From Candidatus Peregrinibacteria bacterium CG11_big_fil_rev_8_21_14_0_20_49_14 (lineage in GTDB: Bacteria > Patescibacteriota > Gracilibacteria > Peribacterales > Peribacteraceae), in contig PCVP01000028.1 in NCBI GenBank assembly GCA_002787035.1, positions 62,001-126,000 of the forward strand: a stretch of 64,000 nt of DNA. Reading direction: 5' to 3'. Positions 23,152-36,336 of the stretch are shown here, piece after piece. The notes under the pieces were generated by a model, which saw nothing but the letters and a program-made list of their open reading frames with translations, was not told where the DNA came from and ran no database searches. Each line of letters starts with the position of its first letter. Position 1 is the first letter of the stretch. The position numbers were made by a program, and so were the translations under genes.

Positions 23152-23229
23152 AGCTGTCTGGGGAAGGTATTGAATCAATACTAGTACGAACTTGCATAGA
23201 AAGGCAAAGTGGCAGACCATATCACCTCC

Positions 23230-23742
23230 ATGCGAGAAGTAATACTGACGGATTCACAGGGCAACGACATAGGTCTTGCAGAGATCATAGATGCCCATAC
23301 CGGTGAAGGAAAACTGCATAAGGCATTCTCTGTGTACATCTTTGGTACGAACGGAAACGAAATACTCATACAACAGCGCAGTGGCAAAAAAATGCTCTTC
23401 CCTCTCGTATGGGCAAACACATGTTGCAGTCATCCGTTTCCCGGCGAAGGTGCGCAGGAAGCGGGAATGCGTCGTCTGCAGGAAGAGTGCGGACTGAGTT
23501 GTACTCTCGAGGAAGCCGGTACGCTCATTTATAAAGCACAAGACCCGAATGGGAACGGAGTGGAGCACGAACATGTCACCCTACTGAAGGGGTATATGGA
23601 TTCACAAACCGTTCCAAACCCACACCCGGATGAAATAGAAGATATACGGTGGATAAACGTGGACGATGTGCTGCGCGAAATGGCTGACACACCCGAAAAG
23701 TATGCTCCCTGGTTTCATTTGGGACTGAAACAGTTACTCTGA
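23230..23742 (+). CDS. idi: isopentenyl-diphosphate delta-isomerase, type 1
   Basis: 170 aa from ATG 23230; ATG 23209 would add seven residues. A Nudix-fold enzyme interconverting IPP and DMAPP. The active-site Cys is in ANTCCSHPFPGE, the Nudix-like helix is EAGMRRLQEECGL, and the catalytic Glu pair lies in GNGVEHEHVTLL. HKAFSVYIF with the family His is also present. It heads the isoprenoid genes and is needed because the mevalonate pathway yields only IPP. Four bases separate it from uppS. Confidence 0.95.
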   Translation: MREVILTDSQGNDIGLAEIIDAHTGEGKLHKAFSVYIFGTNGNEILIQQRSGKKMLFPLVWANTCCSHPFPGEGAQEAGMRRLQEECGLSCTLEEAGTLIYKAQDPNGNGVEHEHVTLLKGYMDSQTVPNPHPDEIEDIRWINVDDVLREMADTPEKYAPWFHLGLKQLL

Positions 23743-23746
23743 ACAT

Positions 23747-24430
23747 ATGTCACCCAAAGACACCCCTCTTCATATCGCAATCATTCCGGACGGTAACAGA
23801 CGCTGGGCCAAGGCTCAGAAACTGAGTCCTTGGAAAGGTCATGAGAAGTCGGCTCGGAACTTTCGCGACATCATTACGTGGTGCTCCAAAAATCCTCGAA
23901 TAAGCACACTGACAATTTGGTGCTTTTCGACCGAAAACTGGAAACGGGACGCCGCGGAAGTGGAGAAGCTTATGGAGATGCTCGAGGAGTATTTGAAGGA
24001 AGAGCGACCCACATTCCATACGAACCGCATGCGGCTCGTACACTCCGGTCGCACCGACAGGTTCACCGAACGCTTGCGGAATTTGCTGCAAACCATGCAG
24101 GAAGAAACAAAAGACTACGACGCATTCACATTGCACCTCGCCATAGACTATGGTGGGAAAGACGAGCTCCTCCGAGCAATGCATAAACTGAAAGACACGT
24201 CTGCCGTGACCGAAGAGCAACTGAGAACACAGTTGGATCAGCCGGATTTGCCGGATTTGGATCTTATTATCCGCACGTCGGGAGAGCAGCGCACCAGCAA
24301 CTTTTTCCTGTGGCAATCTGCATATGCGGAGTGGGTGTTTCATCCGAAATTGTTTCCGGATTTTACGGAGCAAGATCTCTCGGTGTGTCTGGAAGATTTC
24401 GCAAAACGCACACGACGATTCGGATCCTAA
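23747..24430 (+). CDS. uppS: isoprenyl transferase (undecaprenyl diphosphate synthase-like)
   Basis: 227 aa cis-prenyltransferase. The signature IAIIPDGNRRWAK at residues 9-21 holds the catalytic Asp, and the C-terminal block LDLIIRTSGEQRTSNFFLWQSAYAEW holds the substrate Arg residues. IWCFSTENWKR also matches. It extends FPP with IPP to the long-chain lipid carrier for peptidoglycan and surface polysaccharides. It is transcribed with idi and ends two bases before the convergent polyprenyl synthase gene. Confidence 0.95.
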   Translation: MSPKDTPLHIAIIPDGNRRWAKAQKLSPWKGHEKSARNFRDIITWCSKNPRISTLTIWCFSTENWKRDAAEVEKLMEMLEEYLKEERPTFHTNRMRLVHSGRTDRFTERLRNLLQTMQEETKDYDAFTLHLAIDYGGKDELLRAMHKLKDTSAVTEEQLRTQLDQPDLPDLDLIIRTSGEQRTSNFFLWQSAYAEWVFHPKLFPDFTEQDLSVCLEDFAKRTRRFGS

Positions 24431-24431
24431 A

Positions 24432-25325
24432 TCAGCTCTGACGTTCCACGGTAAATTTCGCCAATGCACGCAGAGGATTTGCCGAGTCTCTAAACAGGGC
24501 AATTGCGTCGCTCGCCTCATGCACCAGGTCATGCATGCGCTTCGCTCCGGCCTGCTCTCCGAGAAGCGACGGGTACGTAAGTTTGCTGAGTGCCGCATCT
24601 TTTCCGGTGGCTTTGCCCAGTGTTTCGGGAGTGGACTGCGTATCTAACAAATCATCTCGTATCTGAAACGCGAGACCTATTCTCCATCCATACTGTTCCA
24701 ACGCAGCGAGCTGCTCGGAAGTGCCCGCGGCAATTATTCCTCCGCAGAGCAAAGCGGCTTCCAGCAGTGCGCCTGTTTTTCTTCTGTCGATGGATTCCAG
24801 GTACTCGGTGCCGCTCCCTCCTTTTACACCGCGAAGATCATCGGATTGTCCGCCGACCATTCCCGTAGGTCCGGAGGCTGTTGCAAGTGTGCGTATGCAC
24901 GCGGTTGCGCTGTCTGCCGGCTGCACATCTTTGGCAAGCACATCGAAGGCAAGTGCGAGAAGCGCATCACCTGCAAGGAGTGCTTCCGCTTCGCCGAATG
25001 CGATATGGCACGAGGGGCGCCCTCGACGCATGGCGTCGTCGTCCATGCAGGGGAGATCGTCATGGATGAGAGAGTACGCATGTACCATTTCCACAGCACA
25101 CGCTGCGGGCAGTGCCTGCATGGCACTGCCGCCACACGCCTCTGCCGCCGCCATGGCGAGCAGAGGGCGAATGCGCTTGCCCGGAGCAAGGAGGCTGTAC
25201 CTCATTGCTTCTTGCAGCGCAGAAGGGCAACTGTCGCCAAATGAGCGCATATATGCCTCCAGTGCCGCATCGATATGCGGTCTGAATTTCTCTGCAAAAT
25301 CCGTAAATGCGTCGTTTTCTGCCAT
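24432..25325 (-). CDS. ispA: polyprenyl (farnesyl/geranylgeranyl) diphosphate synthase
   Basis: 297 aa trans-prenyltransferase. The first Asp-rich motif is DDLPCMDDDAMRRGRPS, with the four-residue spacing typical of bacterial FPP synthases (DDxxxxD), and the second is QIRDDLLD. LAPGKRIRPLL precedes the first motif. It supplies FPP or GGPP to UppS. It is the only isoprenoid gene here on the minus strand. Its putative -10 box (TATGAT) lies inside a perfect palindrome shared with the mevalonate kinase promoter region. Confidence 0.92.
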   Translation of the reverse strand: MAENDAFTDFAEKFRPHIDAALEAYMRSFGDSCPSALQEAMRYSLLAPGKRIRPLLAMAAAEACGGSAMQALPAACAVEMVHAYSLIHDDLPCMDDDAMRRGRPSCHIAFGEAEALLAGDALLALAFDVLAKDVQPADSATACIRTLATASGPTGMVGGQSDDLRGVKGGSGTEYLESIDRRKTGALLEAALLCGGIIAAGTSEQLAALEQYGWRIGLAFQIRDDLLDTQSTPETLGKATGKDAALSKLTYPSLLGEQAGAKRMHDLVHEASDAIALFRDSANPLRALAKFTVERQS

Positions 25326-25386: not shown

Positions 25387-26244
25387 ATGCCCACTCACAG
25401 TGTTACGCGCACGGCATTCGCACCCGGAAAAATAATACTCTCCGGAGAGTACGCAGTGGTATTCGGAAAGCCCGGTATAGCGGTGCCGACAAAAAGAGGA
25501 TTCACGGCAACATTTACCGAAGACCTGCGCGCCACTGCTCTTGCCATACGGTGGCCCGAATCTCATCTCCTATGGAAGGAATACATCGGCAAGATTGTGA
25601 CACTCTGTCTGGAAAGAGAAGATCACTTCTTCGGAACGTTGGATCTGAAAAGTACGCTCCCCATGGGAAAGGGAATGGGCTCTTCCACCGCCGCCATTGT
25701 TGCCGTATGCCGCGCGTTGCTGGGAGAAGACTGCAAGGCGACGGCGCTGCACATAGAAGACACGTTAAACCCCGGTCACAGCGGTATAGATTTCGCCACC
25801 GTCTGGCATGCGATGCCTGTGGAATTCCAAAAAGGAGAAGAGCTGAAAACGCTGCGTCTGGAGTATGACCTGCTTACAAATGCCATTCTTATCGATACCG
25901 GCACACCCAGCGAAGCAACTCCCGAGCTCGTGTCTTGGATGCGCGAAAAACACGAAGAAATTGAGGGGGCGATTCATGCCATAGGCACATGCACCGAGCG
26001 TCTGATAGCGGGAGAAAGTCCCGTAACGGTGCTACGAGACCACCATCGTGCGCAAGTCACCCTTGGTATCGTGCCCGAGGAAGTGCAAGCAATGATTGCG
26101 GCAATAGAGCGCACGGGAGGAGCGGCAAAAGTGATAGGAGCGGGAGGAAGGGCGGGAGGAGCGGGAATGGTGGTGGCAATCGGAGAAAATATCGACTCAA
26201 TTCGCACTGCTATTCCGACGCATTTCGATACAATCGACGCATGA
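25387..26244 (+). CDS. mvk: mevalonate kinase (GHMP kinase)
   Basis: 285 aa from ATG 25387; the longer frame upstream overlaps ispA and is not used. Motif 1 AFAPGKIILSGEYAVVFGKP, the ATP-binding motif 2 PMGKGMGSSTAAIVAV, NPGHSGIDFATVWHAMPVEF (the catalytic Asp of SGID) and motif 3 KVIGAGGRAGGAGM are in order. It phosphorylates mevalonate at O5. It is shorter than animal enzymes, as in archaea and bacteria. A phosphomevalonate kinase of the same superfamily cannot be fully excluded by motifs alone. The stop overlaps the next start (ATGA). Confidence 0.88.
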   Translation: MPTHSVTRTAFAPGKIILSGEYAVVFGKPGIAVPTKRGFTATFTEDLRATALAIRWPESHLLWKEYIGKIVTLCLEREDHFFGTLDLKSTLPMGKGMGSSTAAIVAVCRALLGEDCKATALHIEDTLNPGHSGIDFATVWHAMPVEFQKGEELKTLRLEYDLLTNAILIDTGTPSEATPELVSWMREKHEEIEGAIHAIGTCTERLIAGESPVTVLRDHHRAQVTLGIVPEEVQAMIAAIERTGGAAKVIGAGGRAGGAGMVVAIGENIDSIRTAIPTHFDTIDA

Positions 26245-27227
26245 GCATTACTGCACGATCCGCACCGAATATCGCCCTCATTAAATACTGGGGTAACCGA
26301 AACGACACATACAGGCTTTGTGCGGCAAACTCCACTTCCATGACACTCAATATTCCAGGCGTACGCGTGAGCGTTGCGCATGCAGACACATTGGTTGTGC
26401 ATTCCCTGAATAAGCAGATGACGGAGAAAGACACGCTGCGCTTCGCAGAAACACTTCGACTCATTCGGGGGTACCTTGGGTCATTGGGGTACGACCGGGC
26501 GCTTCCTGCGTCACTGCACATAGAAATCGACTCGGAAATCCCACCGTCCATAGGACTGGCATCGTCTTCCGCGGTATTCTCCGCCCTCCCCAAAGCCATT
26601 GCGGGGCTGCTCGACGCGGATCTGACAGATGAGCAGATTTCAGTGATGGCCAGACTCGGCTCCGGCTCCGCTGCCAGAAGCATATTCGGAGGATTTAGTG
26701 CCATACGAAATACCGGAGGCAACGACATAGACAGCGCCGTCGGCTGGCAGATAGTCGACGAGCATCACTGGCAGTTGCACGATATAATTATCGTACCGAG
26801 TACGCAGGAGAAAAAAGTGGGCTCTTCGGAAGGACACGCATTCGCACAAACAAGCCCCCACTTCGCTGAGCGTATTCGGGCAATAAAAGAGTACCGACAA
26901 CAAGAATGCATAGATGCCATAGAGCAAAAAGATTTTGAGAAGCTGCAACACATCGCGGAAGAAGATTGCATGGATATGCACAGGTGCATGGAAACACAGC
27001 AACCCCCGTTGCACTACCTTTCGAGTGAGACACTGCGCATCGTGGGAGAAGTGAAACAGTTACGAGAAGCCGAACACATTCCCGTGCTCTACACCATGGA
27101 TGCGGGGCCAACGGTACATCTTTTCTGCACGAATGAAGCCAGAAACAGGATAGTTGAATTCGCTCATGAACAAGCCGATTGCACCATTTTTAAAGCGAGC
27201 ATCGGTCCCGGTACTCATCTTGTATAA
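26241..27227 (+). CDS. mvaD: diphosphomevalonate decarboxylase
   Basis: 328 aa from ATG 26241. It has the family's ARSAPNIALIKYWGNRND (Lys for substrate), PPSIGLASSSAVFSAL (ATP loop), ARLGSGSAARSIFGGF with the conserved Arg, and YTMDAGPTVHLF with the catalytic Asp. It converts 5-diphosphomevalonate to IPP with ATP. Because Lys and Asp are both kept, it is unlikely to be one of the mevalonate-3-kinase-like relatives, so a diphosphorylated substrate and hence a phosphomevalonate kinase are expected. Translationally coupled on both sides. Confidence 0.93.
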   Translation: MSITARSAPNIALIKYWGNRNDTYRLCAANSTSMTLNIPGVRVSVAHADTLVVHSLNKQMTEKDTLRFAETLRLIRGYLGSLGYDRALPASLHIEIDSEIPPSIGLASSSAVFSALPKAIAGLLDADLTDEQISVMARLGSGSAARSIFGGFSAIRNTGGNDIDSAVGWQIVDEHHWQLHDIIIVPSTQEKKVGSSEGHAFAQTSPHFAERIRAIKEYRQQECIDAIEQKDFEKLQHIAEEDCMDMHRCMETQQPPLHYLSSETLRIVGEVKQLREAEHIPVLYTMDAGPTVHLFCTNEARNRIVEFAHEQADCTIFKASIGPGTHLV

Positions 27228-28435
27228 TGGATCTTCGCTCTCTTCCCGACGGCCTCTCTCCGCAGCAGCGATGTGACGAACGACGAAGACGAATAGAACA
27301 GGAGTCGGGTGCGGACCTCTCTTTCACACAGGAAAAAGACGAGCGCATAGGACAGGCGGACGAAAAGAACTGTGAACAAATGTTTGGTAGTGTCCCGTTG
27401 CCCGTCGGCTATGCGGGCCCGCTTACTTTCACGGGAAGCTCGGGAGAGAAAACGACCGTACACCTTCCGCTCGCAACGACTGAGGGTGCACTAGTCGCCA
27501 GTGTGAATCGCGGATGCAAGGTGCTGTCTGAGACGAACGTTCATACCGATTCCGTGCATCATGGCATCACACGATCACTCGCGTTTGCGGTGGGCGACAA
27601 CGCAGATGCACATGTACCGAAAACCGATGATGAAAGTGCAAATGGTGTACGATCGTTCATAGTAGAATTAGGTGTTAAATCGACAGAATGGAAGCAAATT
27701 GCGCAGTCCACCAGCAATCACCTTCGTGTGATTAGCCACGATGTCGATGCGTGGGATTCCACCGTATTTCTCACACTCGCATTCGATACGGATGAAGCCA
27801 TGGGCATGAACATGGCAACCATTGCCGCACAGGCGGTAGCGGAATGGATAGTCGAACACATGACCGAGCACTCCCCTCGTCTTCTTACCGTTGCGGGCAA
27901 TGTCGACAGCGATAAAAAACCGAGCAAGCGCACACACGACAAAGGTCGCGGGTACGAAGTGACGGCGGAAGCACTGCTGCCTGCGGCACTCATTCGAGAC
28001 GTACTTAAGACAAGCGCGACAGCCATGAAAGCAGTGGCGGAAGCAAAGCTGGAAAAGGGATCGGTTATCGCTGGTGCGATCGGAAGTAATTTGCATGCCG
28101 CCAATATTGTCGCCGCACTCTACTTGGCCACAGGTCAGGATGCCGCACACACCGTGGAAGGATCTCTGACAGACACGACAGTGGAGCGCAAAGGCGAAGA
28201 CCTCCTGGTAAAGGTGCGGCTCCCCGCGGTACTGGTGGGAGTGCGCGGAGGAGGCACGGCACTGCCCGCACAACACCAGTGCTTGCAGCTGTTACTCGGC
28301 AAGCAATCATCGCTGCACCCCAAAAAGCAGTTGGCTGAAACTATTGGTGCCGCCGTACTGGCGGGAGAGATTTCTCTGCTTGCGGCACAGGCGAATCATA
28401 GCCTTGCATCCGCCCACAAAAAGCATGCAAGATAG
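27227..28435 (+). CDS. mvaA: hydroxymethylglutaryl-CoA reductase (class I)
   Basis: 402 aa. It reduces HMG-CoA to mevalonate with NADPH. Visible are PLPVGYAGPL, LATTEGALVASVNRGCK with the catalytic Glu, SDKKPSKR with the Lys, GQDAAHTVEGS with the Asp, and a C-terminal SAHKKHAR with the His. The usual TGDAMGMNM is TDEAMGMNM here. No membrane domain is present, as in archaeal class I enzymes. Its ATG shares one base with the mvaD stop (TAATG). Confidence 0.95.
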   Translation: MDLRSLPDGLSPQQRCDERRRRIEQESGADLSFTQEKDERIGQADEKNCEQMFGSVPLPVGYAGPLTFTGSSGEKTTVHLPLATTEGALVASVNRGCKVLSETNVHTDSVHHGITRSLAFAVGDNADAHVPKTDDESANGVRSFIVELGVKSTEWKQIAQSTSNHLRVISHDVDAWDSTVFLTLAFDTDEAMGMNMATIAAQAVAEWIVEHMTEHSPRLLTVAGNVDSDKKPSKRTHDKGRGYEVTAEALLPAALIRDVLKTSATAMKAVAEAKLEKGSVIAGAIGSNLHAANIVAALYLATGQDAAHTVEGSLTDTTVERKGEDLLVKVRLPAVLVGVRGGGTALPAQHQCLQLLLGKQSSLHPKKQLAETIGAAVLAGEISLLAAQANHSLASAHKKHAR

Positions 28436-28457
28436 CTATTTTTTGGTTGTTTTTTGC

Positions 28458-28463
28458 TACAAT
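28458..28463 (+). promoter_or_regulatory. -10 box (TACAAT) of a leaderless promoter for HMG-CoA synthase
   Basis: TACAAT ends seven bases before ATG 28471, placing the transcription start at or next to the codon. It would separate the synthase-thiolase-DUF35 unit from the kinase-decarboxylase-reductase unit. Confidence 0.5.
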
Positions 28464-28470
28464 GCCGCCA

Positions 28471-29502
28471 ATGAGCAAGTCAGCCATTATCGGGTTTGGC
28501 ATGTACCTACCCTACGAACGCATTCGTACGACAGATATCGCTGAGTACTGGAAACAAGATGCCCGTGCCATGCAGAGCGGACTCGGCGTACGTGAGAAAA
28601 CCGTACCCGGTGCGGGTGAAGACTCGTTCACCATGGCCTACGAAGCCGCCAAGCAAGCGATAGACGATGCGGATATTAAAGCATCGCAAATTTCAGCGGT
28701 TTTTGTCGGTTCCGAAAGCCACCCGTATGCGGTGAAACCGACAAGTGGCATGGTAGCCGACGCCCTGAACACAGACCCGTTCTGCCACTGTGCGGATTTG
28801 GAGTTCGCCTGCAAAGCTGGAACCGCAGGCATGCAGATAGTCGACTCCATGGTACGAGCAAAACAGATCCGCTACGGCCTTGCCATAGGAAGCGACACCG
28901 CACAGGCAGCTCCCGGCGATGCGTTGGAATACACGGCGGCTGCAGGGGCGGCAGCGGTTGTCATAGGGTCTGAGCGAGCGAAGAACGCACTGTGCAGAAT
29001 AGATTTCACGTTGTCATTCACCACCGATACTCCGGATTTCTGGCGCGGTGCGCGCGATGCCTACCCGAGTCATGCGGGTCGTTTTACGGGGGAGCCCGCG
29101 TACTTTCTGCACATGAGAGAGGCAACGAAAGGCATACTGCAAATGGCGGATTGCAACACGAAAGATATCGACCATGTCGTACTGCACATGCCAAACGCCA
29201 AGTTCCCGAGCAGGGTTGCCAAAGAGTTCGGATTTACAAGCGAGCAAATGGAACACGGATTCATTGTGCCGCACATCGGCAACACCTACAGCGCCTGTTC
29301 CCCTCTCGGGCTCATGCACGTGCTGCAGAAAGCCAAAGAAGGGCAAACCATTCTACTTGTGTCGTACGGATCTGGCGCCGGTTCCGATGCATTCCTCATG
29401 ACCATGTTGCGCGACGGCGCTCCGCTTCCGACAGACACGAGAGAGACGCAGTACATCTCGTACGGTGAATACAGCAAACGAGGTCACCCCGTAGCCGCAT
29501 AA
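28471..29502 (+). CDS. hydroxymethylglutaryl-CoA synthase (archaeal type)
   Basis: 343 aa from ATG 28471. It condenses acetoacetyl-CoA with acetyl-CoA to HMG-CoA. The thiolase-fold signature is FACKAGTAGMQIV (catalytic Cys), with GVREKTVPG, HMPNAKFPSRVAKE (catalytic His) and GNTYSACSPLGLMHVL. The sequence pattern is that of archaeal HMG-CoA synthase, which works in a complex with thiolase and a DUF35 protein; both are encoded next. It was probably acquired from archaea or shared with them. Confidence 0.93.
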   Translation: MSKSAIIGFGMYLPYERIRTTDIAEYWKQDARAMQSGLGVREKTVPGAGEDSFTMAYEAAKQAIDDADIKASQISAVFVGSESHPYAVKPTSGMVADALNTDPFCHCADLEFACKAGTAGMQIVDSMVRAKQIRYGLAIGSDTAQAAPGDALEYTAAAGAAAVVIGSERAKNALCRIDFTLSFTTDTPDFWRGARDAYPSHAGRFTGEPAYFLHMREATKGILQMADCNTKDIDHVVLHMPNAKFPSRVAKEFGFTSEQMEHGFIVPHIGNTYSACSPLGLMHVLQKAKEGQTILLVSYGSGAGSDAFLMTMLRDGAPLPTDTRETQYISYGEYSKRGHPVAA

Positions 29503-29504
29503 GT

Positions 29505-30623
29505 ATGAACGCAGATATTTTCCTCATCGGCTCAGGACAAACTCGCTTCGCCGAGTGGTGGGACAAAAGTATTTCCGACCTGCTGCAAGAAGCGGCATAC
29601 GAAGCGCTGGAGCATTCTCCGTGCAAACCGTCCGAAATCGATATGGTCATCGTGGCAAACATGATTGCGGAACGCACGAACGGACAAGCGCATCTCGGAG
29701 CCATAGCCTCCGCGCTCTTTCCTCACAATCCTCCCGCTCTGCGGGTGGAGTCCGCCTGTGCATCCGGTGCCGTGGCACTGCACACCGCATGCGGCATGCT
29801 GGAAAGCGGGAGAGCGAAGAACATTTTGGTAATCGGTGTGGAGAAAATGACAGACGTACCGGTATCGGAAGTTTCCGCCGCACTTATGGGAGCCGCCGAC
29901 AGTGAGAAAGATGCACCGAGCGGCCTGACATTTCCGGGAATTTTCGGACTCATCGCACAGCGATACATGTACGAGCACGGACTGACTCGAGAGCAACTCA
30001 ATACGGTAAGTGCAGTGCACCACCGCAATGCTCTCAGTAATCCTTTCGCACAATTTCGCATGGAGATACCTGCGGAGAAAATCTCGCAAAGTCCGAACGT
30101 GGCAGAACCTCTCTGTATGCTCGATTGCTCTCCCATAAGCGACGGAGCAGCCGCATGCATTCTCTCAACCACACACGAAAGTGATATGAAAATAGTGGCC
30201 TCCCAACTGGCTTCGGATGCCGTGAGCCTGACGGATCGCAAGAGCATCACGTCGTTTTCAGCAACCAAAACCGCCATGGAGAAGGCACTGGAAGAAGCGG
30301 ACACGGACAGAAAGAACATATCTCATATGGAAATTCATGATTGCTTCTCCATAGCAGCTCTCATCAATGTCGAAGACCTCGGATTTGCTGAGCCCGGAAA
30401 AGGAATAGAACTCTATGAGCAAACTGAATCTGTTCCAAGTATCAATGCCAGCGGAGGACTGAAAGCCTGTGGCCACCCCGTGGCTGCCACGGGTATCAAG
30501 CAGGTGACAGACGTATCCAAGCAACTCAGAGCATCGGGAAATCGCTGGGGACTTGCACAGAATTTTGGCGGAGCATGTGCCAGTTGCGGTATACATATAC
30601 TCGAACATACTCCCGTCTCATAA
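29505..30623 (+). CDS. acetyl-CoA acetyltransferase (archaeal-type thiolase)
   Basis: 372 aa. It makes acetoacetyl-CoA from two acetyl-CoA. The nucleophilic Cys is in ESACASGAVALHTACG, the second active-site region is IHDCFSIAALINVEDLGF, and GGLKACGHPVAATG carries the His and the second Cys. Archaeal and SCP2-type thiolases have this shorter form. Two bases separate it from HMG-CoA synthase. The order synthase-thiolase-DUF35 matches the archaeal complex in which the intermediate is channelled. Confidence 0.93.
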   Translation: MNADIFLIGSGQTRFAEWWDKSISDLLQEAAYEALEHSPCKPSEIDMVIVANMIAERTNGQAHLGAIASALFPHNPPALRVESACASGAVALHTACGMLESGRAKNILVIGVEKMTDVPVSEVSAALMGAADSEKDAPSGLTFPGIFGLIAQRYMYEHGLTREQLNTVSAVHHRNALSNPFAQFRMEIPAEKISQSPNVAEPLCMLDCSPISDGAAACILSTTHESDMKIVASQLASDAVSLTDRKSITSFSATKTAMEKALEEADTDRKNISHMEIHDCFSIAALINVEDLGFAEPGKGIELYEQTESVPSINASGGLKACGHPVAATGIKQVTDVSKQLRASGNRWGLAQNFGGACASCGIHILEHTPVS

Positions 30624-30629
30624 ACTGCC

Positions 30630-31562
30630 ATGTCTCATCCTTCCATTGCTCACCGCGCAAAAGCAGACCGAAAGCAGAAAATGCAGGCGGGGAAGATCGT
30701 GTCGTTTACGACTGTTTCTCATCCCCCGGAGGGGTTCGGTTCGGAGCCGCTCACCATCGGCATGGTGGAGCTGGAGGACGGATCGCAGGCTATGGGACAA
30801 CTCATAGTGCCCGGCAATGCGACATTGGCCATAGGACAGGAAGTCATACCACGCATGAAACGAATACGTACCAATGCACAGGGGCTGCACCTGTACGACA
30901 CCGCCTACGAACTGCTTACAAAGAAACCGGCGGAAACTACGGAGAGTACTTCGCAATTCCCCGGGTACATCATCGCATTGTACGGCCCTTCGGGTGTGGG
31001 AAAATCCACAGTGAGCAATCTCCTCACCGCCATGCTTTCCGAGTACGTCGGCACCGTACCAATTATGACAACACGCTCGAAGAAGAAAGGAGATGACGGC
31101 GAATATCAGCACATAGATGAAGAAAAATTCATAGAGATGTGCCGGAAAAAAGAAATAATTGCCGCAACGCAAATCCCCTCTCGCAGTGAAAATCGATGGT
31201 ACGGCTACAGAGAAAAGGACATCCTGAGTATTTGGGAAGCTGGAAAGATTCCCGTGGTCATTACCGAACAAAATCTGCTGCAAGAACTCAGCAGTCACTA
31301 CGGACGACGATCTGTGCTTTCGTTTGGCCTGCTGCCTCCGGGAAAAAGCAGGCGTGCCATGCTCTCGCAACTGCTGCACCGCTTGCGCAGTCGCGGTCGC
31401 GATACGGAAAAGCACATTCAAGACCGCATGAAGAACGCCGAAAGAGATCTCGACTTCTTCGAGGAGCGAAAAGAGCTCTTCGACCACATTCTGGTTAATG
31501 AGGATCTCGACACCGTACTGCAAGCACTGAAAGGGCACGTTCTGCAGCCTGAAAGGGGCTAA
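30630..31562 (+). CDS. DUF35 OB-fold fused to a guanylate-kinase-like P-loop kinase (candidate phosphomevalonate kinase)
   Basis: 310 aa. Residues of about 20-80 resemble the DUF35 OB-fold (GKIVSFTTVSHPPEGFG, MGQLIV), the partner of archaeal thiolase/HMG-CoA synthase, but the usual N-terminal zinc-ribbon Cys are missing. Residues 111-305 follow guanylate kinase: P-loop GPSGVGKS (119-126), TTR (147-149), Tyr159, WYGY (190-193), and a C-terminal RLRSRGRDTEKHIQDRMKNA lid/helix. By eye, phosphate-gripping residues stay, while guanine-reading acidic positions (Glu in the FLEWAE block, Asp in the EIDVQG block) are changed to IIAATQ and ITEQN. A substrate other than GMP is therefore plausible. Animal phosphomevalonate kinases are also P-loop enzymes. 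Confidence 0.7.
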   Translation: MSHPSIAHRAKADRKQKMQAGKIVSFTTVSHPPEGFGSEPLTIGMVELEDGSQAMGQLIVPGNATLAIGQEVIPRMKRIRTNAQGLHLYDTAYELLTKKPAETTESTSQFPGYIIALYGPSGVGKSTVSNLLTAMLSEYVGTVPIMTTRSKKKGDDGEYQHIDEEKFIEMCRKKEIIAATQIPSRSENRWYGYREKDILSIWEAGKIPVVITEQNLLQELSSHYGRRSVLSFGLLPPGKSRRAMLSQLLHRLRSRGRDTEKHIQDRMKNAERDLDFFEERKELFDHILVNEDLDTVLQALKGHVLQPERG

Positions 31563-31650: not shown

Positions 31651-31656
31651 TATAAT
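31651..31656 (+). promoter_or_regulatory. -10 box (TATAAT) upstream of the glucan genes
   Basis: TATAAT in the 140-base gap after the DUF35-kinase gene, 47 bases before ATG 31704. It would start the glycosyltransferase-GH57-GH15 transcript. The -35 region is not clear. Confidence 0.4.
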
Positions 31657-31703
31657 TGAAGGATTTTTGGGTCAAATTCTCGAAAACAAACACACAAAGA
31701 ACA

Positions 31704-32921
31704 ATGAAGCGACTACATACGCTGATGTTCGGCTGGGAATACCCCCCCATTCACTTGGGAGGACTGGGTGTGGCATGCCAAGGACTCGTACGCGGACTCA
31801 TGAGCAACGGAGTGAAAGTGACGCTCGTTCTGCCGAATCCGGACGCCGAAAGGGAGGGAGATTTGGATGTCTTATACCCGACGGAGGAAATGCTGAATCA
31901 CGTGCATATCGAAAGCATTCTGTCTCCGTACGACACGTTCGACTCCTACGGCATGCGCATACATACCATTCCTGCCGGACGACAGCACATCTACGGAGCG
32001 GATCTCGGTGAGGCGGTGGCACAGTACACTGCCGCGAGCGTGGAGATGACAAAAGATGTGCATCCGGATGTGGTGCACTGTCACGACTGGATGACATACG
32101 AAGCGGCAGCCCGCGCAGCCAAATACCATGCGAAACCTCTGGTGGCACACATTCATGCAACCGAATTGGACAGAACACATTTTCATCCGAACGAATGGAT
32201 TTACAACCGAGAGCTCAAGGGATTTACGATGGCAGACAAAATTATCGCTGTCAGTAACTACACGAAAAATATACTGGTGAAACACTACGGCATATCGCCA
32301 CACAAAATTCATGTGGTACACAACGGAGGAACGTTCCCCGTGGCGGAAACATCGCACAAAATGCATTCGCAGTACGGCTACAAAAAGCAGCCAATGGTGC
32401 TCTTTCTTGGTCGCATGGCGTTACAGAAAGGACCGTATCAATTCCTGGATATGGCCGCCAAGGTGCATGCATCACGTTCGGATGTGCAATTTGTCATGGC
32501 AGGAGACGGCGACATGCTCGGCGGACTCATAGACGAATCCGTACGCCTCGGGCTCAAAGATTCCATTATTTTCGCAGGCAAAGTGACGAACGGCGAAGCG
32601 CAAAAACTGTTCTCTCAAGCGGACTGTTTCGTTATGCCCTCTCTCTCGGAACCGTTCGGACTGGTGGCTCTGGAGGCGGTGGCGCAGGGAACTCCTGTGA
32701 TCATCTCAAAACAGTCGGGAGTGAGCGAAGTTATAAGTCACGGATTCGCCGTGGACTTCTGGGACACAGCCAAGATGGCAGACTGCGTACTGACAATACT
32801 TCGGGATGATGCGCTGGCACAGCAACTGAGCTCCGAAGCCTCACGAGTCGTTACACAACTTACATGGGAACATCAGGCCATGGCCGTTCGTTCTCTCTAC
32901 CACAACATACTTCATACCTAG
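31704..32921 (+). CDS. glycogen/starch synthase-like glycosyltransferase (GT4/GT5)
   Basis: 405 aa from ATG 31704. The N-terminal GWEYPPIHLGGLGVACQGL is the nucleotide-sugar-binding signature of glycogen synthases (GT5) and related GT4 enzymes. HCHDWMTYEAA-like CHDW, HIHATELDR, FLGRMALQKGPYQFLD, and the C-terminal E-x7-E motif in PSLSEPFGLVALEAVAQGTPVI complete the GT-B fold. It probably elongates an alpha-1,4-glucan from ADP- or UDP-glucose. Two glucan hydrolases follow directly. Confidence 0.88.
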   Translation: MKRLHTLMFGWEYPPIHLGGLGVACQGLVRGLMSNGVKVTLVLPNPDAEREGDLDVLYPTEEMLNHVHIESILSPYDTFDSYGMRIHTIPAGRQHIYGADLGEAVAQYTAASVEMTKDVHPDVVHCHDWMTYEAAARAAKYHAKPLVAHIHATELDRTHFHPNEWIYNRELKGFTMADKIIAVSNYTKNILVKHYGISPHKIHVVHNGGTFPVAETSHKMHSQYGYKKQPMVLFLGRMALQKGPYQFLDMAAKVHASRSDVQFVMAGDGDMLGGLIDESVRLGLKDSIIFAGKVTNGEAQKLFSQADCFVMPSLSEPFGLVALEAVAQGTPVIISKQSGVSEVISHGFAVDFWDTAKMADCVLTILRDDALAQQLSSEASRVVTQLTWEHQAMAVRSLYHNILHT

Positions 32922-32928
32922 TTTTATT

Positions 32929-34293
32929 ATGCACCCTCACATCTGCCTCTACTTCCAGGTACACCAGCCCTACAGACTGGATGATCTGCGCACGACGGAC
33001 GTCGGACAGCATAAACCCTACTTCGATACGCAAAAGAATCACGATATCTTCCGTAAGGTTGCTGAGAAGTGTTACTTACCCGCAAATAAGTTGATGCTGG
33101 AACTCTTGGAAAAACATGCGCACTTCTCCATAGCCTATTCTCTCTCGGGAGTATTTCTGGAGCAGTGCGAAGAGTTCGGACAGGACGTGCTAGATTCCTT
33201 TATGAAGCTTGCCGCCACGGGAAAAGTGGAGTTTTTGGCAGAAACGTACTATCACTCCCTCAGCTCCATGCACTCGCTGCCGGAGTTCTGTGAACAGGTG
33301 GCAATGCACAGTGAAAAAATCTCTGATCTGTTTGGAGTACAGCCGCGTGTTTTTAGAAATACCGAACTTATTTTCAACAATGAGATAGCGCACATTGCGC
33401 GCATGATGGGCTTTGTCGGCATACTGGCCGAAGGCGCAGACCACCTGCTGCACGGAAGGAGTCCCAACGAACCGTACGTACCTCCCGAGTTTTACCTTCC
33501 GGAAGAGACGCACTGGAACATTATAAAAAAGAACTTCCCGAATGCGCATCCGGCGGAGAAAATTCACGTACTCCTGAAGAACTACAAACTCTCGGACGAC
33601 GTCGCATTCCGCTTCTCCGATAAAAGCTGGATAGGCTATCCCCTGAAAGCAGAAACATTCACCGATTGGGTCATGAGCAGCGGCGGACACAATATAAATC
33701 TCTTCATGGACTACGAAACATTCGGAGAACATCAGTGGGAAGACACAGGAATATTTGAGTTTCTTCGTGCACTTCCGCAAGTGTGGGAAGAACGCGGTAT
33801 TCGCGCCCTGACACCTTCGGCTATTCTCGAAGACTGGAAACACAACACGAACCAAGCAATCGGCATAGCGCCGAAAGAACGCGAGCATGTGGGCAGAGAC
33901 ATCTCATCCATACTCGAAGCGCTCTCCGCAATCTGGAAGAGACCTGCACACGTACCGTCTCCCATGACATACCGTGAACAGGAGTTCGACGCGCATCTGC
34001 CTGTTTCGTGGGCGGACACGGAGCGAGATCTCTCCGCGTGGGAAGGGAATCGAATTCAAGATGCCTCACTGGAAGCAATTTACGAGATGGAAGAGGCCGT
34101 AAAAGCAACCGGAGATCCGGTGCTCATAACAGAGTGGCGCAAGCTGCAGACATCGGATCACTTCTACTACATGTGCACGAAGTACTGGAGTGACGGCGAT
34201 GTGCACAAGTACTTCAGTCCGTACGATTCTCCGTACGAAGCGTACCGAAGATTCAGTCATGCCATTCACGACTTACGTTCCCGACTCTCTTAA
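32929..34293 (+). CDS. glycoside hydrolase family 57 (alpha-amylase/4-alpha-glucanotransferase-like)
   Basis: 454 aa, (beta/alpha)7-barrel GH57. Conserved regions are visible in order: HQPYRL (residues about 11-16), GKVEFLAETYYHS, FRNTELIFNN with the catalytic Glu nucleophile, and FMDYETFGEHQW with the acid/base Asp. No signal peptide, so it acts on intracellular glucan. Specificity (amylase, branching or transferase) cannot be read from the sequence. Its stop is followed immediately by the GH15 start. Confidence 0.92.
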   Translation: MHPHICLYFQVHQPYRLDDLRTTDVGQHKPYFDTQKNHDIFRKVAEKCYLPANKLMLELLEKHAHFSIAYSLSGVFLEQCEEFGQDVLDSFMKLAATGKVEFLAETYYHSLSSMHSLPEFCEQVAMHSEKISDLFGVQPRVFRNTELIFNNEIAHIARMMGFVGILAEGADHLLHGRSPNEPYVPPEFYLPEETHWNIIKKNFPNAHPAEKIHVLLKNYKLSDDVAFRFSDKSWIGYPLKAETFTDWVMSSGGHNINLFMDYETFGEHQWEDTGIFEFLRALPQVWEERGIRALTPSAILEDWKHNTNQAIGIAPKEREHVGRDISSILEALSAIWKRPAHVPSPMTYREQEFDAHLPVSWADTERDLSAWEGNRIQDASLEAIYEMEEAVKATGDPVLITEWRKLQTSDHFYYMCTKYWSDGDVHKYFSPYDSPYEAYRRFSHAIHDLRSRLS

Positions 34294-36336
34294 ATGCCAA
34301 GATCTCTTCTTCTCGGAAACGGCTCCATGCTCGCAACATTCGATAATGACCTTCAAATGCGGGATCTCTACTACCCATATGTCGGAATGGAAGACCATAC
34401 CGCATACGGAGACGTACATAGAGTGGGGGTCTGGATAGATGGGATAGGCATTTCATGGTTCAGCGATGACGACTGGAACATACAAGTGAACTACAAACCC
34501 GAAACACTCGTGGGTCACTCGCTGCTACGCAATGAAAAGATGGGACTCACCATCACCGCCGAAGACTACGTGCATCCGGTACGAAACATTCTCGTGCGGG
34601 AGTTCAGGGTTATCAGTACGGATGGAAAAGAGAAAGACGTAAAATTCTTCTTTCATCATGATTTCCACATATACGGAGACAAGCAGAAAGACACAGCATT
34701 CTACGAACCCTACACCAATACGGTCATCCACTACCGCCTGAAGAGGTACTTCCTCGTGGGAGGGCAAACGTCCGAACCCATTTCCTGCCACACGGGAGGC
34801 AACGCAAATGAGTACCAGTCCGTACTGCACAGCAGAAAGAAAATACAAAGCTGTGGCATAAATGAATACAGCATCGGAAAAACCGAATACCAAGGGTACG
34901 TGGGCACATGGAAAGATGCCGAAGACGGAGTGCTCTCGGGCACCACCATAGACCAGGGATCCGTGGACTCCACGGTGGGCATACAATGCAAAGTGACGCC
35001 CGAAAAAGAAACAGTGGTACATCTCTGGCTGTGCCTTGGAACATCGTTGGAGGAAGTGGTGGAGAACCAACAGTTTGTGCTGGAGGAAACTCCGGAGCGC
35101 ATGAAGCGAAACTGTCACAATTACTGGAAGAGTTGGGTGAACAAAACACATAGAGCATTCGGCTCACTTTCCACCAAAACGGTGGATCTCTATAAGCGAA
35201 GTCTCCTGACCATTCGGATGCATGCGGATAATAACGGAGGGATAGTGGCTGCGGCGGACGCAGACATCATGATGTTTAACAAAGACACGTACACCTACGT
35301 ATGGCCACGGGACGGTGCGTTCGTATCTCTCGCTCTCGATAAAGCGGGATACATGGAAGTAACGCGACGATTCTTCGAATTTTGCTGCAAGATTCAGCAA
35401 CCTGACGGCTACATGCTGCATAAGTACAACCCGGACGGATCTTTCGGATCTTCTTGGCATCCGTGGTTTAGAGACGGCGAGGCGCAACTGCCTATTCAGG
35501 AAGACGAAACGGCACTAGTGCTCTACGCACTTTGGAAACATTTCGAAGCCGTACAGGACTTTGAATTCCTGCAGCGCATGTACGAACTGTTCATAAAGAA
35601 AGCGGCACAGTTTCTCTGTGACTACCGAGAAATCGATACCGGCCTTCCCCTGCCAAGCTATGATCCGTGGGAAGAGCACAAGGGAATCTTTACCTACACA
35701 ACAGCCTGTACAATCGCAGGGCTGCAGGCGGCTTCGCGAATCTGCCATATCCTCGGGCACTACACGCATTCCGAACGGTACGAGAGTGCGGCAGATACCA
35801 TGAAGCAGGCATTACTCTTCCATTTGTATGATGAAGAGAAGGGAAGATTCTTAAAGAAGATCAAACGCAAGAACGGCGAAACTACGGAGAGAGATGACAC
35901 ACCGGATGCCAGCATCAGCGTACTGTGGAAACTTAATATTCTCTCCGCCGATGACCCTCGAACCATCTCCACCATGGAGCAATTGGAAAGTATGTTGAGG
36001 GTAAAAACAGAGGTGGGTGGGCAGGCACGATACACGAAGGATTTCTACCACTCGGTCACAGAACCTTCCGCCGACATTCCAGGTAATCCGTGGATTATTA
36101 CAACCCTTTGGAACGCACAGTGGTACATTCGCAGAGCAAAGAATCTCAAAGAGCTGCACAAAGTACGCGATACCATAGAATGGGTGGTGAAATACGCATC
36201 GCCTTCGGGGATGCTGGCGGAACAGCTGAACCCTCTGACCGGTGAACCGCTTTCGGTCGCACCTCTTACATGGAGCCACGCCACATTCGTAGAGACGGTA
36301 TTGGAATACTTGGAGAAAGAATCGGAACTTTCATAA
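34294..36336 (+). CDS. glycoside hydrolase family 15 glucoamylase-like enzyme
   Basis: 680 aa. An N-terminal beta-sandwich domain (about 1-280) begins LLLGNGSMLATFDNDLQMRDLYYPYVG, as in bacterial/archaeal GH15 proteins. The (alpha/alpha)6 barrel follows, with YVWPRDGAFVSLALDKAGY, the general acid Glu in PWEEHKGIFTYTTA and the general base Glu in LAEQLNPLTGEP. It releases glucose from alpha-glucan ends; trehalase-type members also exist. No signal peptide. It completes a compact intracellular glucan synthesis and breakdown operon. Confidence 0.92.
   Translation: MPRSLLLGNGSMLATFDNDLQMRDLYYPYVGMEDHTAYGDVHRVGVWIDGIGISWFSDDDWNIQVNYKPETLVGHSLLRNEKMGLTITAEDYVHPVRNILVREFRVISTDGKEKDVKFFFHHDFHIYGDKQKDTAFYEPYTNTVIHYRLKRYFLVGGQTSEPISCHTGGNANEYQSVLHSRKKIQSCGINEYSIGKTEYQGYVGTWKDAEDGVLSGTTIDQGSVDSTVGIQCKVTPEKETVVHLWLCLGTSLEEVVENQQFVLEETPERMKRNCHNYWKSWVNKTHRAFGSLSTKTVDLYKRSLLTIRMHADNNGGIVAAADADIMMFNKDTYTYVWPRDGAFVSLALDKAGYMEVTRRFFEFCCKIQQPDGYMLHKYNPDGSFGSSWHPWFRDGEAQLPIQEDETALVLYALWKHFEAVQDFEFLQRMYELFIKKAAQFLCDYREIDTGLPLPSYDPWEEHKGIFTYTTACTIAGLQAASRICHILGHYTHSERYESAADTMKQALLFHLYDEEKGRFLKKIKRKNGETTERDDTPDASISVLWKLNILSADDPRTISTMEQLESMLRVKTEVGGQARYTKDFYHSVTEPSADIPGNPWIITTLWNAQWYIRRAKNLKELHKVRDTIEWVVKYASPSGMLAEQLNPLTGEPLSVAPLTWSHATFVETVLEYLEKESELS

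Follow-up and report, generated by a model that had tools for sequence, protein, structure and literature searches.

A guanylate kinase-like protein fused to a DUF35-type OB fold as a candidate isopentenyl phosphate kinase in a Peregrinibacteria mevalonate operon

In the mevalonate (MVA) gene cluster of Candidatus Peregrinibacteria bacterium CG11_big_fil_rev_8_21_14_0_20_49_14 (GTDB family Peribacteraceae; GCA_002787035.1), one reading frame joins an OB fold to a guanylate kinase-type (GK) domain, which raises the question of what a relative of guanylate kinase does in an isoprenoid operon. A paper on Peribacteria from 2016 reported the steps of the MVA pathway except the conversion of mevalonate-5-phosphate to mevalonate-5-diphosphate (PMC4736985), a gap to which the fusion kinase offers a specific and testable answer. 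We analyzed the gene in a window of 64,000 nucleotides (contig PCVP01000028.1, positions 62,001 to 126,000, forward strand); window coordinates are collected in Table 1. The original prediction for this locus was a phosphomevalonate kinase (PMK) or, as a fallback, a kinase of another small phosphoryl acceptor.

Table 1. Features of the fusion kinase and of the surrounding mevalonate cluster (window coordinates; residues are those of the fusion)
Feature	Position	Strand	Evidence or conservation
Undecaprenyl diphosphate synthase (UppS)	23747..24430	+	PF01255, E 1.3e-69
Isopentenyl-diphosphate isomerase (IDI) type 1	23209..23742	+	TIGR02150 and PRK03759, above cut-off
Short-chain prenyl diphosphate synthase (FPP/GGPP synthase)	24432..25325	-	NF045485, above cut-off
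GHMP mevalonate kinase (MK), divergent	25387..26244	+	TIGR00549, 85.5 bits, below cut-off
MVD-family decarboxylase (MVD), phosphomevalonate decarboxylase-like active site	26241..27227	+	TIGR01240, 179 bits; top PDB match 6n0x
Asn codon of KYWGN (Lys position in diphosphomevalonate decarboxylases)	26295..26297	+	Alignment; PMC3857490 Table 4
HMG-CoA reductase	27227..28435	+	PF00368, E 4.9e-88
HMG-CoA synthase, archaeal type	28447..29502	+	TIGR00748 (383.5 bits) and PRK04262 (432.7 bits), both above cut-off
Acetoacetyl-CoA thiolase, archaeal type, directly upstream of the fusion	29505..30623	+	PF00108, PF22691, NF053570
OB-GK fusion kinase, 310 aa	30630..31562	+	Single ATG-to-TAA frame
DUF35/ChsH2-type OB fold, zinc ribbon absent, residues 20-72	30687..30845	+	PF01796, E 3.9e-9
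Guanylate kinase-type domain, residues 113-304	30966..31541	+	PF00625, E 2.2e-17 (residues 115-302)
P-loop GPSGVGKS, residues 119-126	30984..31007	+	GPSGVGK invariant in 39 intact orthologues
R149, acceptor-phosphate arginine (yeast Gmk R38)	31074..31076	+	Kept in 38/39
Y159, acceptor-phosphate tyrosine (yeast Gmk Y50)	31104..31106	+	Kept in 39/39; lost in 7/8 PMK-bearing genomes
A178, replaces the guanine-reading Glu	31161..31163	+	Ala/Ser/Thr in 39/39; Glu in 18/18 canonical gmk
Y191-G192-Y193, acceptor Tyr retained, guanine-side Thr replaced by Tyr	31200..31208	+	39/39

The fusion begins 6 nt past the stop codon of the thiolase gene in the window sequence and thus lies directly behind HMG-CoA synthase and thiolase, as originally described. 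Its N-terminal domain scored 36.8 bits against PF01796 (cut-off 27.1), which assigns it to the DUF35/ChsH2 OB folds, and the OB profile matched the 6esq chain deposited as "Pfam DUF35" (E 1.5e-7, profile positions 17-92). The fusion lacks the zinc ribbon because no cysteine occurs ahead of residue 171, and no match to the rubredoxin-like zinc ribbon PF12172 was detected in it. The C-terminal domain belongs to the guanylate kinase superfamily (PF00625, 63.7 bits, cut-off 25.2), and its profile aligned with that of the gmk of the same family at an hhalign probability of 98.6 and 28% identity. The Pfam matches and the cysteine positions therefore agree with the earlier description of an OB fold without zinc ribbon and a GK domain in one frame. 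This fusion is not a product of chance, since 38 of the 39 aligned orthologues match both domains and always lie 3' of the thiolase gene where the contig allows. Structure prediction of the fusion with three sequences reached a pLDDT of 51, a quality insufficient for a fold search.

Neighbourhoods of the fusion were retrieved and compared in 57 sampled family genomes. In most cases two proteins per genome match PF00625, the fusion and a shorter, canonical gmk of about 200 aa. Every one of the 46 genomes with HMG-CoA reductase has the fusion, and none of the 11 genomes without it does (Fisher p 2.5e-10 for co-occurrence in the 57 genomes), apart from a lone GK domain in G013. The gene order MK-MVD-HMG-CoA reductase-HMG-CoA synthase-thiolase-fusion recurs across the family with few rearrangements, and the fusion is found 3' of thiolase in every family genome whose contig continues, including G005, where it was missed by Pfam. 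The family orthologues of the window-type MK cluster with outgroup MKs in the tree (support 99/98). We detected HMG-CoA reductase in 29 of 380 sampled genomes of the phylum, of which the 13 inside the family all carry the fusion and the 16 outside all lack it; among the readable members of the latter, many encode a separate OB protein behind thiolase, some with a zinc ribbon. Gmk-like matches elsewhere in the phylum had no MVA neighbours within their short loci, except for an IDI-like match in G406.

Directly 3' of the fusion, at 31656-36336 of the window, are genes for a GT4-type glycosyltransferase (PF00534), for an enzyme of family GH57 (PF03065), and for a protein of 680 aa that appears glucoamylase-like by eye, and this region resembles a glucan set. 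The lone GK domain of G013 (L064:9501-10427, minus strand) is related to that of the fusion, lacks the OB domain, and has an intact acceptor triad in a genome without the MVA pathway; by eye, it adjoins the operon of ribosomal proteins, secY, and adk.

One reading of such a protein is that it serves as the guanylate kinase of the cell and is merely linked to the MVA operon. To compare the two proteins residue by residue, the 39 intact fusion orthologues were aligned with the family's own gmk (gmk numbering as in G038). Besides the P-loop, R149, Y159, and Y191, the fusion retains R255 and R266. The residues Ser33, Glu67, Thr79, and Asp99 of gmk, which lie on the guanine side in Gmk structures, correspond to Pro144/Ile145, Ala178, Tyr193, and Glu213 of the fusion: Ser is replaced by Pro/Ile, Glu by Ala/Ser/Thr, and Thr by Tyr in 39/39, and Asp by Glu in 38/39. 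Thus, the alignment confirmed the by-eye claim that the phosphate-binding Arg and Tyr persist and the guanine-reading positions are altered. Also setting the fusion apart from gmk are new invariant arginines (R189, R226, R242, R251, R253, and R257), a short insert near R242, and a score of 79.4 bits against the gmk equivalog TIGR03263, far below its cut-off of 160.45.

The original prediction was to fall if the genome held no other gmk and the protein phosphorylated GMP. A second PF00625 protein is indeed absent from the window genome, but both congeners carry a canonical gmk, as do most relatives. Canonical gmk was not detected in G000, G009, G021, G028, G037, G041, G043, G052, and G053, whose relatives have one; G028 lacks a detectable gmk although it is assembled as a single contig. 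These absences would suit a fusion acting as guanylate kinase, but every intact fusion has other residues at the positions of the guanine-reading Ser, Glu, and Thr, and the gene tracks the presence of HMG-CoA reductase. In G021, a genome without gmk, the fusion no longer has R149, Y159, or Y191, and a replacement of gmk by the fusion is unlikely there because the acceptor site has decayed. On the replaced guanine-side residues and this loss, we rejected GMP as the acceptor, and we consider a role as the cell's guanylate kinase very unlikely. The comparisons support a kinase that diverged from gmk as its paralogue and is linked to the MVA operon.

Which kinase is missing from the pathway? The window genome encodes only two GHMP proteins (MK and MVD), and most MVA-positive genomes of the family have exactly two. 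PMK of the TIGR01220 type had no match in the window genome or in the family genomes of the phylum sample, and animal-type PMK (PF04275) none above cut-off in the 57 family genomes and none at all in the window genome, so the earlier statement that no PMK is otherwise visible holds. Isopentenyl phosphate kinase (IPK) of the amino-acid-kinase type (NF040647) was above cut-off in 0/57 family genomes, a count that leaves out full-length amino-acid-kinase matches below the IPK cut-off. An amino-acid kinase in the mevalonate cluster of G037 was rejected as an IPK; by eye it is the glutamate 5-kinase of a proline operon, and proB/proC/proA appear by eye to be inserted between HMG-CoA reductase and MVD in that genome (L082:13843-16983).

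Eight family genomes contain a third GHMP protein (GHMP3), adjoining a different decarboxylase (MVDb). GHMP3 scores above the TIGR00549 cut-off for MK; we rejected it as a second MK because it groups in the tree as sister to the TIGR01220 PMKs (support 95/74) and carries SGAGGGDC, as solved PMKs do, at the place of TGAGGGGC in MKs. The R149/Y159/Y191 triad is broken in 7/8 genomes with GHMP3 versus 1/38 others (p 1.2e-6, computed without correction for kinship). The tree implies about five PMK-like gains, with five changes needed for each trait (GHMP3 and triad loss); well-supported branches give four independent pairs, of which three follow the expected direction and none the opposite, too few for significance in a sign test. 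Where the acceptor site has decayed in GHMP3 genomes, the OB domain of the fusion is retained.

These patterns bear on whether the GK domain is an enzyme at all. A DUF35-type OB domain directly behind thiolase would suit a GK domain that, without catalysis, organizes or regulates the complex of thiolase and HMG-CoA synthase, similar to the GK domains of MAGUK proteins, but MVA genomes without another kinase show little or no variation in the P-loop Lys and the acceptor residues, and the acceptor residues decay almost only alongside the PMK-like gene, so that a purely structural role appears highly improbable. The fusion probably supplies the missing kinase step, because it is linked to HMG-CoA reductase, PMK and IPK were not found, and its acceptor site decays where a PMK-like gene has been gained. 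At the level of sequence, the place of the kinase in the MVA pathway is well supported.

The identity of this step depends on the partner decarboxylase. The original view that no other step is missing presupposes diphosphomevalonate as the substrate of MVD, but the active site of this enzyme suggests a different one. Window MVD is above the cut-off of the diphosphomevalonate decarboxylase model TIGR01240 (171.35 bits) and scored 103 versus 475 for the haloarchaeal phosphomevalonate model, and its closest solved structure is 6n0x, the phosphomevalonate/diphosphomevalonate decarboxylase of Anaerolinea thermophila. In genomes without GHMP3, MVD has Asn21/Arg27 in 34/34 readable cases (35 in one count) and His196 in 35/35 (residues numbered by S. 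epidermidis). The entry 6n0z differs from 6n0x at just two of those positions, Asn to Lys and His to Met; judging from sequence, 6n0x is probably the A. thermophila enzyme and 6n0z its mutant. Mutagenesis has turned phosphomevalonate decarboxylase specificity into diphosphomevalonate decarboxylase specificity (PMC9254496). Bacterial and eukaryotic diphosphomevalonate decarboxylases and those of Sulfolobales are listed with Lys21 (eLife 2013 Table 4, PMC3857490), and the window-type MVD has Asn in place of this Lys of KYWGK.

Position 21 also follows the accompanying kinase across the phylum. Among the genomes read, each of the 18 that encode a PMK-type GHMP protein but no IPK has Lys/Arg21, and the IPK-bearing outgroups G208 and G075 (IPKs of 189 and 176 bits, above cut-off) have Met21 and Gln21, respectively; G075 holds a PMK-like protein in addition to its IPK. 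Furthermore, all eight GHMP3 genomes carry the exchanged decarboxylase MVDb, and an IPK role of the fusion would account for an exchange of MVD at every PMK gain. An IPK is thus favoured over a PMK, because the partner MVD has the Asn/Arg/His set and Lys/Arg21 goes with PMK and its absence with IPK.

One genome fits this pattern poorly. G023 encodes an MVDb-type decarboxylase with Lys21 (L038:14298-15335) on a long branch and with a rebuilt loop after KYMGK; no GHMP3 was found in it, and its fusion is intact. The G023 decarboxylase has Asn at the catalytic Asp position, and Asn is aligned with the catalytic Asp283 in MVDb of G006, G019, G021, G025, G026, and G045 and of G047, G050, G218, G229, G257, and G276. 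A D281N mutant of the Sulfolobus-type decarboxylase was reported to be active (PMC9254496).

The PMK reading, in which the GK domain converts mevalonate-5-phosphate to mevalonate-5-diphosphate as a non-orthologous PMK and MVD is an ordinary diphosphomevalonate decarboxylase of the classical pathway, draws equally on the linkage, the gap, and the decay, and acceptor-site decay on arrival of a PMK-like GHMP protein is what direct replacement predicts. It is further favoured by the TIGR01240 score of MVD, by the combination of intact fusion and Lys21 decarboxylase with no other PMK found in G023, and by animal PMK, a P-loop enzyme of the NMP-kinase-like type that performs this very reaction. The A. 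thermophila decarboxylase reportedly accepts both mevalonate-5-phosphate and mevalonate-5-diphosphate, so Asn21 is compatible with the classical route. Against a PMK stand the lack of the Lys listed for diphosphomevalonate decarboxylases (PMC3857490), the A. thermophila set in every readable orthologue, the association of Lys/Arg21 with PMK and of other residues with IPK in the phylum, and the exchange of MVD in all eight PMK-gaining genomes, which replacement of PMK alone does not need. We regard the classical route as possible and clearly short of probable. A promiscuous kinase acting on both phosphomevalonate and isopentenyl phosphate, beside a dual-specificity decarboxylase with both branches running, would reconcile G023 with the 34 Asn21 genomes and suits the A. 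thermophila enzyme that MVD resembles, which is said to be dual-specific; but its pocket must fit a charged as well as a hydrophobic tail, and we consider it improbable.

We give a little more than an even chance to the fusion being a non-orthologous IPK in an alternative MVA pathway, tethered by its OB domain. In this pathway, mevalonate would be phosphorylated to mevalonate-5-phosphate by the GHMP MK, the MVD relative would act as a phosphomevalonate decarboxylase yielding isopentenyl phosphate, and the GK domain of the fusion would convert the latter to isopentenyl diphosphate. The acceptor phosphate may be held by R149/Y159/Y191, and I145, A178, and Y193 would make the pocket more hydrophobic. 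Through its OB domain, the fusion may anchor the kinase in the complex of thiolase and HMG-CoA synthase; in this view, an enzyme of guanylate kinase descent has been joined to the OB domain that bridges the two enzymes in archaea. We infer substrate, catalysis, and tethering, and several observations weaken the IPK assignment: the pairing of an intact fusion with a Lys21 decarboxylase in G023, where no PMK-like gene was found, fits a PMK better; MVD passes TIGR01240 but reaches 103 versus 475 on the haloarchaeal model; G075 encodes a PMK-like protein beside its IPK; and the new conserved arginines R189, R226, R242, R253, and R257 could suit an acceptor that carries a carboxylate, for example phosphomevalonate. 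Of the original prediction, the kinase filling a gap in the MVA cluster stands, and a PMK is a possible reading that fits less well, given the residues of the partner MVD; isopentenyl phosphate, to which these residues point, falls within its fallback of another small phosphoryl acceptor.

Our results suggest that isoprenoid synthesis recruited a gmk, which became physically linked to a complex acting early in the pathway. We know of no earlier link between the guanylate kinase family and the alternative MVA pathway. Were the IPK assignment true, the alternative MVA pathway of a Peregrinibacteria family would depend on a gmk-derived kinase, and genomes scored as classical MVA with PMK missing would need re-reading. 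There is an even chance, in our view, that this is the first IPK outside the amino-acid-kinase superfamily, a gmk paralogue fused to a thiolase/HMG-CoA synthase scaffold domain that completes the alternative MVA pathway and decays where PMK and diphosphomevalonate decarboxylase have been acquired.

Compared with known systems, the fusion shares with Gmk (PF00625/TIGR03263) the fold family, the P-loop, and the acceptor-phosphate Arg and Tyr but differs in its altered guanine side, the insert in the R242 region, the new invariant Arg, and the N-terminal OB domain. The archaeal DUF35 bridging protein (6esq; PF01796 and PF12172) resembles it in the OB match and in the gene position directly 3' of an archaeal-type thiolase, whereas the fusion has no zinc ribbon and is joined to a kinase; other CPR lineages encode the OB protein separately at the position of the fusion behind thiolase. 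PMKs act in the same pathway, and the animal PF04275 type is also a P-loop, NMP-kinase-like enzyme, but the fusion has no PF04275 match and the TIGR01220 type has an unrelated GHMP fold. Window MVD and the A. thermophila phosphomevalonate decarboxylase (6n0x) share Asn21, Arg27, and His196 and are otherwise diverged in sequence. With the amino-acid-kinase IPK (NF040647), the fusion would share the proposed reaction of isopentenyl phosphate and ATP to isopentenyl diphosphate, and it shares an accompanying MVD without Lys/Arg21, but the fold of that enzyme is unrelated to the GK domain.
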